This document shows, piece after piece, positions 6,222 to 22,123 of a stretch of DNA of 23,075 nucleotides. The translations under genes were made by a program, and so were the position numbers. Position 1 is the stretch's first letter. Every line of letters begins with the position of its first letter. Below the pieces are notes generated by a model that was not told the DNA's origin, did no database searches, and worked only from the letters and a program-made list of their open reading frames with translations. The stretch covers positions 1-23,075 of IMG/VR virus record IMGVR_UViG_3300048033_000796. The stretch is one strand, 5' to 3'. This DNA comes from a virus.

Positions 6222-6298
6222 CGGAGTATAGGTCAGTCTGGTAGACCGCTACGTTTGGGACGTAGATGTCGGTGGTTCAAATCCATCTACTCCGACCA
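6222..6298 (+). tRNA. tRNA-Pro (TGG)
   Basis: A full cloverleaf: acceptor CGGAGTA/TACTCCG, discriminator A, encoded CCA (6296-6298), D arm GGTC/GACC, anticodon stem CTACG/CGTAG around loop TTTGGGA with anticodon TGG at 6256-6258, and T arm GGTTCAAAT. The C1-G72 pair is typical of bacterial proline tRNAs. It reads CCA and, with wobble, the other proline codons. Confidence 0.95.
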
Positions 6299-6709: not shown

Positions 6710-7357
6710 ATGGAAAATCCTTATCAAAATATGACTAAAGAGCAAGTTGCAAACTTGCCACCTATTGATAAAACACCTGACTTTATCGAACATTATAAAG
6801 GTGTTCTAACTAAAGAATTTTGTAAGCGGGTCACTGATTGGTTTGATTTTCAGGAAGAAACAAATTCATTTGTTATTGATAGGCGTTCTGATGAATATGT
6901 AACAGATACGCAAATCTTTGCTGGTACTGTTGGTTCGCCCGTATATCCAGGATTTCAATTAAATACAATTTCACCTGTTTTGCATAATCCAATCTTCGAA
7001 GTATTGAAGACAGCGGCACAAGACTATTTCAAAAAGTACCCGTTTATTCATACTGCGGGCAGTCATAGTATTGTTGACTTCAAAATGCAAAAGACAAAAA
7101 AGGGTGAAGGGTTTACTGGGTGGCACTATGAGAGTGGTGACATTCAACACAATCGCAGATTTTTGACTTTTATGATTTATCTAAACGATGTTAATAATGG
7201 TGGCGAGACTGAATTTTATTATCAGAAAAAGAAATTTAAACCTCGTGCTGGTGACATGTTAGTATGGCCTGCTGGTTTCACACATATGCATAAAGGTTAT
7301 TCCCCTAAAAAAGAGACCAAGTATATTATCACAACATGGATGGAGTATACTGGTTAA
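6710..7357 (+). CDS. 2-oxoglutarate/Fe(II)-dependent oxygenase, prolyl-hydroxylase-like
   Basis: A 215-aa protein of the double-stranded beta-helix oxygenase fold. Metal ligands are in the HxE variant: H139 and E141 in GWHYESG, and H194 in THMHKG; K204 sits where the 2-oxoglutarate carboxylate is bound. The core FLTFMIYLNDVNNGGETEF is the hallmark strand-turn of prolyl-4-hydroxylase-like enzymes. Such genes are frequent in marine T4-like phages, but their substrates are unknown; they may hydroxylate a protein side chain or act on nucleic acid. The stop codon overlaps the start of the ClpP-like gene. A second oxygenase (18905) has the usual HxD. Confidence 0.88.
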   Translation: MENPYQNMTKEQVANLPPIDKTPDFIEHYKGVLTKEFCKRVTDWFDFQEETNSFVIDRRSDEYVTDTQIFAGTVGSPVYPGFQLNTISPVLHNPIFEVLKTAAQDYFKKYPFIHTAGSHSIVDFKMQKTKKGEGFTGWHYESGDIQHNRRFLTFMIYLNDVNNGGETEFYYQKKKFKPRAGDMLVWPAGFTHMHKGYSPKKETKYIITTWMEYTG

Positions 7358-8010
7358 TGATTAACAAAAACAGGAATTCACCTATGAAAGACTTATTACA
7401 ATTGGGTGATAGCGTTAAAGGTTATTCAGTTAAACCTGCTATCAATCTTCATACGTTATATATGACAGGAGAGATTGAAAGTCCTGATGAGTACACAGAT
7501 GTTTTTGAGAGCATTCGAATGGCTTCGCCTAACGATGTAATCAAAATTCATATTAACTCACCTGGCGGTGATTTGTTTACTGCTATTCAGTTTATGCGAG
7601 TATTAAAAGAGACAGAAGCGAAAGTGATTACTTCTGTTGAGGGTGCTTGCATGTCTGCGGCAACCTTAATCTTTCTAGCGGCAGACCAATTTGAAATCAG
7701 TGAACACTCTGTATTCATGTTCCACAACTATTCTACAGTAATGTATGGTAAGGGTGGTGAATTGTTTGATGGGATTATGCACGACCGCAAGTGGTCAGAA
7801 AATCTACTCAAAACAGAATACGAAGGTTTCTTAACTGAGAAAGAAATTGAAACTGTCTTAGATGGTAAAGATATCTGGCTTGATGCTGATGACGCAGTAG
7901 AGCGTTTGAATGTTTTTGCTAAACTACAGCAACAGCGCATTGAAGAGCAAAAGGCTGAAGAACAGCAATCTACGCCAAAAAAGCGCAAATCAACCAAAAA
8001 AAGTGACTAA
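7357..8010 (+). CDS. ClpP-like serine protease
   Basis: A 217-aa member of the ClpP/crotonase-type fold. The catalytic triad is complete: S100 in GACMSAATL, H123 in FMFHNYS and D172 in GKDIWLDADDA. HINSPGG at 66-71 is the oxyanion-hole strand. The C-terminal tail (from about residue 187) is a Gln/Glu helix ending in Lys/Arg. ATG 7357 overlaps the previous stop; ATG 7384 is an alternative with its own AGG. In phages such proteins may serve as head-maturation protease or work with host ClpA/ClpX to degrade proteins. The early-type neighbours here favour the second, by inference. Confidence 0.88.
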   Translation: MINKNRNSPMKDLLQLGDSVKGYSVKPAINLHTLYMTGEIESPDEYTDVFESIRMASPNDVIKIHINSPGGDLFTAIQFMRVLKETEAKVITSVEGACMSAATLIFLAADQFEISEHSVFMFHNYSTVMYGKGGELFDGIMHDRKWSENLLKTEYEGFLTEKEIETVLDGKDIWLDADDAVERLNVFAKLQQQRIEEQKAEEQQSTPKKRKSTKKSD

Positions 8011-8720: not shown

Positions 8721-8797
8721 GCCCTCGTAACTCAACAGGATAGAGTAACGGTCTTCTAAACCGTAAGTTGCAGGTTCGAGTCCTGCCGAGGGCGCCA
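8721..8797 (+). tRNA. tRNA-Arg (TCT)
   Basis: Acceptor GCCCTCG/CGAGGGC, discriminator G, encoded CCA (8795-8797), anticodon stem ACGGT/ACCGT with loop CTTCTAA and anticodon TCT at 8755-8757, and T loop GGTTCGAGTCC. It reads AGA and AGG, arginine codons that are favoured by AT-rich phages and often rare in hosts. Confidence 0.95.
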
Positions 8798-8809: not shown

Positions 8810-8885
8810 GGGCTTGTAGTTCAGCGGATAGAATACTTGTCTACGAAACAAGGGGTCAGAGGTTCGAATCCTCTCAAGCCCGCCA
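8810..8885 (+). tRNA. tRNA-Arg (ACG)
   Basis: Acceptor GGGCTTG/CAAGCCC, discriminator G, encoded CCA (8883-8885), anticodon stem CTTGT/ACAAG with loop CTACGAA and anticodon ACG at 8843-8845, and T loop GGTTCGAATCC. A34 would have to be converted to inosine by host TadA to read CGU, CGC and CGA. It lies 12 bases after tRNA-Arg(TCT). Confidence 0.94.
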
Positions 8886-10002: not shown

Positions 10003-10578
10003 ATGAGTTATAAACAAGTAGAAGTGGGTGATTTAGCACCTATGGTAACCTTTCGTATGCGTAGGGGTGATGTTACACCTGGCACAGAAGGGTGTGGCTT
10101 TGACGGCGAATGGGTAGAGACTAATTCTTATGAGTTATTCGAAAACAAAAAAGTCGTTTTATTTTCATTACCTGGCGCATTTACGCCAACTTGCACTACA
10201 ACAATGGTGCCTGGATTTGAACAGATGCATAGTCTGATGACTGATTTGGGTGTCGATGATGTGTATTGTATTTCTGTCAATGATGCGTTTGTGATGAATG
10301 CATGGGCAGATTGCTTGAATTTGAAGAACGTTAAAGTTCTACCCGATGGTAATGGCGAATTCACACATGATGTGGGTATGCTAGTAAGTAAGTCCAATCT
10401 GGGTTTTGGTTTCCGCTCATGGCGTTATGCCGCTGTGATTGAAAACGGCAAATTCACTTATTTGGGTGTTGAAGAGTTTGATAAAGATGATGAGTTTTCT
10501 CGCAACGATATTGAAGAAGACCCATACATTGAGAGTACACCTGAAAAGGTATTAGAATTCTTGCGAAGCGAGAGTTAA
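10003..10578 (+). CDS. Peroxiredoxin (Prx5/AhpE-like)
   Basis: Reduces hydrogen peroxide and organic peroxides with a cysteine thiol. The 191-aa protein has the peroxidatic motif PGAFTPTC with C64, preceded by VVLFSLP, and the conserved arginine R141 in FRSWRYAAVI. PGAFTPTC rather than FTFVCPTE puts it in the Prx5 group. Other cysteines (C31, C89, C104) could resolve the sulfenic acid, or glutaredoxin may do it; a phage glutaredoxin lies 2.1 kb on. It sits 2 bases after one gene and 1 before the next, so it is part of an operon. Protection of the infected cell from oxidative stress is inference. Confidence 0.9.
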   Translation: MSYKQVEVGDLAPMVTFRMRRGDVTPGTEGCGFDGEWVETNSYELFENKKVVLFSLPGAFTPTCTTTMVPGFEQMHSLMTDLGVDDVYCISVNDAFVMNAWADCLNLKNVKVLPDGNGEFTHDVGMLVSKSNLGFGFRSWRYAAVIENGKFTYLGVEEFDKDDEFSRNDIEEDPYIESTPEKVLEFLRSES

Positions 10579-12157: not shown

Positions 12158-12694
12158 ATGAAAAGATTTTTAACAATTGCCGCAATTGCGGGTCTATCTA
12201 TTTTCGCTACTGAGAAAGCGATGGCGCAAGAAACAATTCAAGCACCTATTGTGAGTAAAGTTGCCCAGTATATTTGGGCGAAAGAATATATCGGTACAGA
12301 CCAAGTGTGTCGAACTGTGTATGTCAAAGAACCGCAAGGTAAATGGAACGATGGCGTTTCTGGCGCAATTAAGGGTGACGGTGACGCAATCGCTGGCGCA
12401 ATTATTGGTGGTCTTATCGGCAATCAGTTTGGTGGCGGTAAAGGTAAAGATGTAATGACTGGTCTAGGCGTAATCGTAGGTTCGAATGTTGCAAAAGGTA
12501 CTGCAAACCGAAATGGTGGTACAATCAAACGTACTATTTGCGATGATGTACCACAATATCATAAAGTGAAAGAAATCACTGGTTATAATGTGACGTATAT
12601 GTATGATGGGAGACATTATCAGGCATTCTTCAATGAAGACCCTGGTACACATGTTACACTTGAACTTAAAACAACGCATAGCGTAAGGAACTAA
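12158..12694 (+). CDS. Secreted glycine-zipper protein, 17-kDa surface antigen-like
   Basis: A 178-aa protein with a signal peptide (KRF, hydrophobic residues 5-17, cleavage at AMA-QE after residue 23). Residues 74-115 form a glycine zipper (GDAIAGAIIGGLIGNQFGGG), as in the two-helix membrane domain of the rickettsial 17-kDa antigen and UmoD-like proteins. C51 and C128 may pair in the periplasm. No lipobox cysteine follows the signal, so it is not an obvious lipoprotein. In bacteria such proteins sit in the envelope. A phage copy could alter the host surface, for example against superinfection; that is a guess. Acquisition from a host is likely. Confidence 0.8.
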   Translation: MKRFLTIAAIAGLSIFATEKAMAQETIQAPIVSKVAQYIWAKEYIGTDQVCRTVYVKEPQGKWNDGVSGAIKGDGDAIAGAIIGGLIGNQFGGGKGKDVMTGLGVIVGSNVAKGTANRNGGTIKRTICDDVPQYHKVKEITGYNVTYMYDGRHYQAFFNEDPGTHVTLELKTTHSVRN

Positions 12695-12695
12695 T

Positions 12696-12950
12696 ATGCA
12701 TTTTACAGTATATTCTAAAGATTTGTGTGGTTATTGCACAAGAGCAAAAACATTGCTTGATACGCATAGTCTACCATACAATGAAATCAAACTAGGGCGT
12801 GATATTGAACGTGATGCGCTAATTGAAGCAATTCAATTCTATGGTCACAGCAATACAATGCCTATGGTAATTGTCGAAGACGAACACGGCAATAAAGAAC
12901 GAGTTGGTGGGTATGAAGCCCTCAGCGATTTTGTCAAAAATAATGTTTAA
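12696..12950 (+). CDS. grx: Glutaredoxin
   Basis: An 84-aa thioredoxin-fold protein: first strand FTVYSKDL, dithiol site C11-G-Y-C14, the cis-proline loop NTMPMVIV (P56) and the glutathione-binding GGYEAL near the end. The CGYC site is dithiol, fit for reducing ribonucleotide reductase; T4 has a comparable NrdC. It likely donates electrons to the NrdA encoded at the left edge and may recycle the peroxiredoxin at 10003. It starts 1 base after the glycine-zipper gene stop. Confidence 0.92.
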   Translation: MHFTVYSKDLCGYCTRAKTLLDTHSLPYNEIKLGRDIERDALIEAIQFYGHSNTMPMVIVEDEHGNKERVGGYEALSDFVKNNV

Positions 12951-16643: not shown

Positions 16644-16877
16644 ATGCATACATTAAAACAGGTCCATTTGGGCTTGCCAGATATTTCGGTCTGGTTCAAA
16701 AGAATTCGAAAAGAGATGAAGCGTAAAAGTGACATCCGTTCAACTATCAATCAACTCTCAGCACTTTCAGATTACGAACTCAGTGACATGGGTATTCATC
16801 GTGGTGAAATTTATGACATTGCACACTCTAGTGTAAAGAACGCTGAAGAGAACAAAAATCTAAGAGGGTGGGTATAA
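16644..16877 (+). CDS. DUF1127 (YjiS-like) small protein
   Basis: A 77-aa protein with the DUF1127 signature INQLSALSDYELSDMGIHRGEI: a helix, the L-S-D-x-E-L-x-D-x-G turn, and R-x-x-I. The N-terminal WFKRIRKEMKRK is the usual basic helix. DUF1127 proteins are very common in alphaproteobacteria; one in Rhodobacter (CcaF1) binds RNA and affects RNA turnover. The ribosome site AGGAAGGA is excellent. It looks like a gene taken from an alphaproteobacterial host, and an effect on host RNA is a possible role. The partner gene follows with an overlapping stop/start. Confidence 0.85.
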   Translation: MHTLKQVHLGLPDISVWFKRIRKEMKRKSDIRSTINQLSALSDYELSDMGIHRGEIYDIAHSSVKNAEENKNLRGWV

Positions 16878-17074
16878 TGGCTGTAGCATTTAGACAACCA
16901 ACATTCAGAAACCCAATACCTGCCCTATTCAAGGGAATTGGTAAGTTTCTTGCAGGCGTACTAGCAGTATGCATTACTGTTACTGAAAGCGCAGGTCGTG
17001 CAAGAGCGGCGCATCAACTACATCTTCTAGGTTACCATGAAGAAGCAAAAGAGTTAATGCTTAGAAAAGATTAA
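16877..17074 (+). CDS. Small DUF1127-related protein with hydrophobic helix
   Basis: A 65-aa protein starting at ATG 16877, overlapping the TAA of the DUF1127 gene (TAATG); GTG 16868 is a weaker alternative. A basic, Pro-rich start is followed by a hydrophobic stretch (FLAGVLAVCITV) and then ESAGRARAAHQLHLLGYHEEAKELM. The R-A-R-A-A-x-x-L-x-x-x-G-Y segment resembles short alphaproteobacterial proteins linked to DUF1127. Translation coupling suggests that the two proteins work together. It could sit at the membrane. The pqqA-like gene is 90 bases further on. Confidence 0.7.
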   Translation: MAVAFRQPTFRNPIPALFKGIGKFLAGVLAVCITVTESAGRARAAHQLHLLGYHEEAKELMLRKD

Positions 17075-17086
17075 TGATTTTCTGTA

Positions 17087-17115
17087 TTGCTTTTTTGGTA
17101 CAATTCATATAAGAT
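17087..17115 (+). promoter_or_regulatory. Possible promoter of the pqqA-like gene
   Basis: TTGCTT (17087-17092), 17 bases, TAAGAT (17110-17115). It lacks the CCC mark of the other promoters. A short hairpin, GTTGC-ATAAA-GCAAC (17122-17136), follows in the leader before the AAGGAG ribosome site. Confidence 0.5.
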
Positions 17116-17164
17116 ATTATAGTTGCATAAAGCAACATTTTATTAACTTAATAAGGAGTAACTT

Positions 17165-17236
17165 ATGTGGACAAAACCAACAGCAACAGAAATGAGATTT
17201 GGTTTCGAAGTAACAATGTATGTAATGAACAAGTAG
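17165..17236 (+). CDS. pqqA: PqqA-like pyrroloquinoline quinone precursor peptide
   Basis: A 23-codon gene, the exact length of Klebsiella PqqA. It starts MWTKP, has R11, and ends with GFEVTMY at 13-19 and NK. E15 and Y19, three residues apart, are the two side chains that the radical SAM enzyme PqqE joins to make the PQQ core; the Trp2-x-x-Pro5 start and Arg11 are shared with bacterial PqqA. AAGGAG lies 8 bases before ATG. No pqqB, C, D or E is in the window, so maturation would need host enzymes. It has its own promoter region and a strong terminator, as expected for a peptide made in excess. Likely effect: more PQQ for host dehydrogenases during infection (inference). A 37-codon GTG frame (17167-17277) overlaps it. 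Confidence 0.85.
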   Translation: MWTKPTATEMRFGFEVTMYVMNK

Positions 17237-17284
17237 ATTACATTCGAAGAATACTAGAAACACAAGATTGTATATGAGAGACAA

Positions 17285-17309
17285 GGGGTGCGTTTAGCGT
17301 CCCTTTTTT
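17285..17309 (+). terminator. Rho-independent terminator after pqqA
   Basis: GGGGTGC (17285-17291), loop GTTTA, GCGTCCC (17297-17303), then six T residues. Seven pairs with two G-U. It isolates the pqqA-like gene from the next promoter, 13 bases further. Confidence 0.85.
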
Positions 17310-17321
17310 CTTGGTTTTCCC

Positions 17322-17350
17322 TTGACAATTAAACAAAAATAGTGTATATT
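17322..17350 (+). promoter_or_regulatory. Sigma70-type promoter, TTGACA-17-TATATT
   Basis: TTGACA at 17322-17327 and TATATT at 17345-17350; nearly the same spacer as at 5456-5484 (AAAAATAGTG before the -10). It starts the transcript from 17391. Confidence 0.85.
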
Positions 17351-21850: not shown

Positions 21851-22123
21851 ATGCGAATACAACCAACACAAGACTATGTATTGATAAAGCAAGTCGAAGC
21901 ACCAAAAAAGAAATCTACAATCATATTAACAACAGACCCAGAGACAGGTATGAAGCCAGCAAAGATACTTGCATGTGGGAAAGACGTAAAAGACCTTGTA
22001 GAGAATACAATGATATATCCAATATGGAGTGAAGCAAAACCCGTAACAATCGATGGCGTAGAGTTAGCACTACTTAAAGAAGAGAGTGTACTAGCGTTTG
22101 TAACATCACTAGAAGAGGGATAA
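21851..22123 (+). CDS. groES: GroES-like co-chaperonin (gp31-type)
   Basis: A 90-aa GroES-fold protein: PTQDYVLIKQVEAPKKKSTI is the first strand and the roof of the mobile loop, whose STIILT matches the IVLT that touches GroEL. Then GMKPAKILACGKDV and VLAFVTSLEEG near the end. T4 gp31 replaces host GroES for folding the capsid protein gp23; this protein could do the same, which is inference. It is shorter than GroES (97) and gp31 (111), and the middle is reduced. AAAGG lies before the ATG. Confidence 0.78.
   Translation: MRIQPTQDYVLIKQVEAPKKKSTIILTTDPETGMKPAKILACGKDVKDLVENTMIYPIWSEAKPVTIDGVELALLKEESVLAFVTSLEEG

Follow-up and report, generated by a model that had tools for sequence, protein, structure and literature searches.

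An orphan pqqA gene in a T4-like phage fragment and its recurrence in phages of methylotrophic bacteria

The DNA analysed here (the window) is an entire 23,075-bp IMG/VR record, itself a fragment, and by its translation and family matches the segment 17165-17236 on the plus strand is a complete, intact pqqA, the gene for the PQQ precursor peptide. We consider it probable, with odds of roughly three in four, that this phage pqqA is an auxiliary gene supplying a precursor that is consumed, so that the host enzymes keep making PQQ. Within this reading we infer expression of the gene, processing by host enzymes and an effect on PQQ level and phage yield. A pqqA in a phage had been described before, and the window is a further case; the gene recurs in many unrelated viruses of the methylotrophs that are the probable hosts, which suggests that the supply of precursor counts while a cell is infected.

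The pqqA gene of the window

The gene encodes MWTKPTATEMRFGFEVTMYVMNK followed by a stop codon. The translation has 23 residues, with an MWTKP start, R11 and GFEVTMY at positions 13-19, including E15 and Y19. The peptide matches both PF08042 of Pfam (2.2e-10; 40.7 bits against a cut-off of 21.1) and TIGR02107 of NCBIfam (4.1e-10; 39.3 bits against a cut-off of 20), and since both models give about twice the required score, the match is not due to chance. Its length lies within the range of PqqA peptides, which have about 22-26 residues with an N-terminal leader, and E15 and Y19 are a Glu and a Tyr four apart, as in the pair that PqqE cross-links. The same spacing is described in PMC10906245, where the residues are numbered E16 and Y20. 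The full PqqA plan that an earlier note on this DNA had read from the letters is therefore borne out, both by the translation and by the profile search that it proposed.

The gene stands alone in the gap between an ORF at 16880-17074 and another starting at about 17391. A Shine-Dalgarno sequence, AAGGAG, lies within aataaggagtaacttATG at 17153-17158 on the plus strand, 6 bases before the ATG, and the unit is closed by a terminator-like hairpin followed by a T run (17283-17305, plus strand; 9 pairs, 5 of them GC). The hairpin has an energy of -17.3 kcal/mol (z = -3.8), and 3 terminator-like sites were found in the pqqA region against 0.3 expected in shuffles. Both the strong ribosome site and the strong terminator claimed earlier thus hold. 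The promoter attributed to the gene fared less well: the sole upstream match, a weak sigma-70-like TTGGTA-17-TATAGT at 17095-17123 on the plus strand (9/12 matches), is no better than chance, as 3 sites of that grade were found near pqqA and 2.3 are expected. A strong promoter-like site, TTGACA-17-TATATT (17322-17350, plus strand, 11/12), lies past the terminator and would serve the next gene. In agreement with the earlier note, the window ORFs that were scanned include no further pqq gene.

The carrier phage and its host

The window encodes a class I ribonucleotide reductase, an RNase H and T4-like families and, judging from these genes, is a piece of a T4-like phage, so that pqqA is carried here, like an auxiliary gene proper, by a bona fide phage genome. 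The top-scoring match of the RNase H is in methylophage Melnitz (52%). The relatives that were compared for an empty site around the window are about 50% identical and rearranged, and in gene-sharing clusters the window fell in none of the groups of the first set of pqqA contigs. The other genes include a ClpP-like protease (7336-8010), a peroxiredoxin of the Redoxin/AhpC type (10003-10578), a glutaredoxin (12696-12950), a GroES-like co-chaperonin (21851-22123), 2OG-Fe oxygenases and three tRNAs, namely tRNA-Pro(TGG) at 6222-6298, tRNA-Arg(TCT) at 8721-8797 and tRNA-Arg(ACG) at 8810-8885. A secreted-looking protein encoded at 12158-12694 on the plus strand has a weak similarity to PRK11280, below the cut-off, and may be a glycine-zipper protein of the outer membrane that derives from a host. 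Two genes before pqqA, a small DUF1127 (YjiS-like) protein is encoded at 16644-16877 on the plus strand (Pfam, 1.3e-9). DUF1127 is mostly a bacterial family, and this may be another small host-derived gene.

The EMRFGFEVTMY type of peptide is almost confined to Methylophilaceae genomes, as judged by record titles. Because the window peptide is of this type, and considering also the T4-like kinship, the host of the phage is very probably a Methylophilaceae methylotroph. In this family pqqA was found in 80 of 80 genomes, with a median of 4 copies (range 1-12) and at least two copies in 78. PqqE was present in 11 of 12 Methylophilaceae genomes, as one copy and once as two, and PqqC in 11 of 11, as one copy; of the pathway that the earlier note proposed to look for, these two genes are thus present in the family to which the host of the window very probably belongs. 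The multiplication of pqqA alone was already known in Methylophilaceae (Beck et al. 2014, PMC4109929), whose chromosomes encode the same peptide type in orphan copies apart from pqqBCDE, with only pqqA amplified, and five copies of pqqA have also been reported in a methylotroph that produces PQQ (PMC9851590). In contrast to these chromosomal genes, the pqqA of the window lies on a phage, and its best DNA identity to a sampled host copy is 91%. In the family to which a Rhodocyclaceae MAG belongs, 12 genomes had 1-4 pqqA genes each, mostly 2.

Occurrence of pqqA in cultivated and metagenomic phages

A tblastn search with PqqA returned 12 of 50,697 phage records: nine of methylophage isolates, one uncultivated podovirus and two Acinetobacter contigs. 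A second query, with a PqqA of the Acinetobacter type, returned the same twelve. Every one of the nine methylophage isolate records located in the collection (Venkman, P19250A, MEP301, MEP401, MEP402 and four of Melnitz) possesses pqqA, where MEP431-434, EXVC038S and phiMB624-A, known by name, are not among the nine. All seven isolate genomes run against the PqqA family model scored over its cut-off, and the peptides of Venkman, P19250A, MEP301, MEP401/402 and Melnitz are 77-96% identical to that of the window, intact and preceded by a good ribosome site. The genome backgrounds of these phages differ from that of the window. They also differ from each other, since clustering placed Melnitz, MEP401/402 and Venkman-P19250A-MEP301 in three unlinked groups; Venkman, MEP301 and Melnitz have been counted as three distinct groups before (PMC10580990). 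The isolate records that were read bear no pqqA label, a hypothetical ORF being placed on the opposite strand in two genomes, and the papers on Venkman, Melnitz, MEP301 and MEP401 mention no pqq gene. Since standard annotation missed pqqA in every isolate record, it may also overlook further auxiliary genes of such small size. Two pelagiphages that were tested, HTVC008M (kin of Melnitz) and HTVC010P, are devoid of pqqA. The Acinetobacter hits were rejected: the one that was read, CAKLQF020000010.1, filed in the phage collection as 'Acinetobacter phage MD-2021a', is a host contig with chromosomal pqq genes and ppk.

In IMG/VR, a scan by DNA pattern found pqqA in at least 120 contigs. By shared genes, the pqqA contigs and the isolates form about 12-15 unlinked groups, a count that leans high because contigs of one genome type can fall into several groups. 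For most groups, representative contigs contain viral hallmark genes (terminase, portal, major head protein, baseplate hub, DNA polymerase), and no PqqE over the family cut-off was found in 48 pqqA-bearing viral records.

In the Venkman lineage, pqqA keeps one position in 26 of 26 contigs whose neighbouring recombinase is at least 92% identical. At 62-80% identity it is present in 5 of 8 (one of the other three contigs is truncated), and at about 50% in 0 of 44. Where the T4-like neighbour gene of the window was examined, pqqA lay near it in 2 of 50 records, and the MEP401 group has the gene at its locus in 3 of 12 contigs. Contig L390, a close relative of MEP401 (neighbour gene 94% identical), is without pqqA there, and at about 1085-1400 it carries unrelated sequence in place of the pqqA block between conserved flanks, as if the block were an exchangeable cassette in this kin. 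From this lineage-wise presence and absence it follows that pqqA tracks methylophage lineages and is gained and lost, and, because most T4-like relatives and L390 are without it, that the gene is useful rather than essential.

Selection on the viral gene and its proposed role

Two DNA patterns were used on IMG/VR. The first fixed E15 and Y19 and is of no use for testing their conservation, while the second fixed the N-terminal half only. In the scan with the latter, E15, Y19 and the stop at codon 24 are kept in 120 of 120 viral copies, none of which is frame-broken, and a ribosome site precedes the gene in 116. In codons outside the search pattern, pS is 0.73 and pN 0.048; the resulting pN/pS of 0.066, like the counts, describes the set and is not a formal test, since the viral copies are not independent. 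On these values the viral pqqA is under strong purifying selection, so that it is also, as an auxiliary gene should be, maintained by selection. The viral genes are close to those of the hosts: in 75 of 209 the encoded peptide is exactly that of a host, and at the DNA level the closest host copy is, in the median, 92% identical.

The cross-linking of Glu to Tyr by PqqE with PqqD, followed by the action of a protease, PqqB and PqqC, is established (PMC10906245). We propose that the phage copy of a Methylophilaceae pqqA would be a minimal auxiliary metabolic gene, making the 23-residue precursor only. Host PqqD would bind this precursor and host PqqE would join E15 to Y19, after which the host protease, PqqB and PqqC would complete the PQQ used by methanol dehydrogenase (XoxF or MxaF). 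Each PQQ costs one peptide, which makes the precursor the sole part of the pathway in need of continuous production. In a phage that seizes host transcription, selection would favour carrying a pqqA as well. Purifying selection, the invariant E15 and Y19, the pqqE and pqqC of the hosts and the host amplification of pqqA alone all support the extra-precursor reading preferred by the earlier note. We favour it also because the carriers are methylophages, where the demand for PQQ is high. That hosts amplify, and phages repeatedly carry, the same single gene would further suggest that the pressure falls on the supply of precursor.

However, the host is already multi-copy for pqqA, and an additional copy brings no evident gain unless the host genes are expressed less once the cell is infected. 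In a sub-case of precursor supply, to which we give slightly less than even odds, the phage gene would only replace host pqqA mRNA lost when the phage degrades host DNA or shuts off transcription, and PQQ output would be maintained rather than raised. T4-like biology agrees with this, as do the ribosome site and terminator that the gene possesses and the copy number of the host. Against it, small phages of unrelated types, which may not alter host transcription, also have pqqA; moreover the mechanism is the same precursor supply, and only the size of the change differs.

The opposite possibility, raised by the earlier note, is a decoy that ties up PqqD/PqqE; we include under it a peptide that acts as a brake on a later enzyme. 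In either case less PQQ would be made and methanol oxidation would shut down. A phage pqqA without PqqE would also suit such a titrating peptide, but a decoy would gain by losing one of the cross-linked residues and no cross-link-dead variant was seen in the 120 copies, while the many phage peptides equal to host peptides would simply be processed. A phage in an obligate methylotroph, besides, needs energy from methanol. We therefore regard a decoy as improbable.

It is more improbable still that a tiny gene was caught by recombination near host pqqA copies and is carried without effect. Chance capture would be easy, the host copies being many and scattered, but a silent passenger is contradicted by the selection on the gene (much synonymous change at a pN/pS of about 0.07, all copies intact), by its fixed place in the Venkman-like contigs and by its restriction to methylophages within the phage collection.

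Least credible of all is that pqqA contigs in general are bacterial chromosome filed as virus: one 72-kb record, IMGVR_UViG_3300025120_009955, is probably such DNA, but the explanation is refuted for the window by its ribonucleotide reductase, RNase H and T4-like proteins and for the isolates by their complete genomes, and most groups have hallmark genes near pqqA. In that 72-kb record pqqA lies beside a PQQ alcohol dehydrogenase, an NADH-G-like oxidoreductase and SoxYZ; the dehydrogenase was rejected as a phage enzyme, its neighbours looking chromosomal.

Relation to earlier reports

The earlier note left open whether a phage pqqA had been described. It had, in 2020: pqqA was reported in the methylophage population VP_266 of Lake Baikal, and the same function was proposed for it (Coutinho et al. 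2020, PMC7678222). Compared by description, VP_266 is like the window in being T4-like, in having a predicted Methylophilaceae host, in encoding PqqA without a full pqq operon and in the proposed support of methanol oxidation; unlike the window, whose 23-kb fragment has none, it was reported together with a methanol dehydrogenase carried by phages of that population. A virus-encoded pqqA is also listed in a reservoir study. The recurrence of pqqA across unrelated methylophages was not found in the open-access literature searched.

We lean, by a small margin, towards a wider proposal: that orphan pqqA is near-universal in Methylophilaceae phages, was gained independently by about ten or more unrelated lineages and was overlooked at 23 codons, and that precursor supply is the PQQ step limiting methylotroph infection. 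If this were true, the ribosomal precursor of a cofactor would be a repeatedly selected auxiliary metabolic gene. Phages of methylotrophs shape methanol turnover in the sea and in lakes, and a pqqA shared by many unrelated phages of one bacterial family would point to a common bottleneck of infection; it would then also be a simple marker for assigning methylophages in metagenomes. Whether PqqA supply is limiting for PQQ can be tested in cultured pairs such as Venkman and strain H5P1.

Other types of PqqA were observed in six viral contigs, some of them with terminase, portal or head genes, so that pqqA may also occur in phages that infect other PQQ producers.
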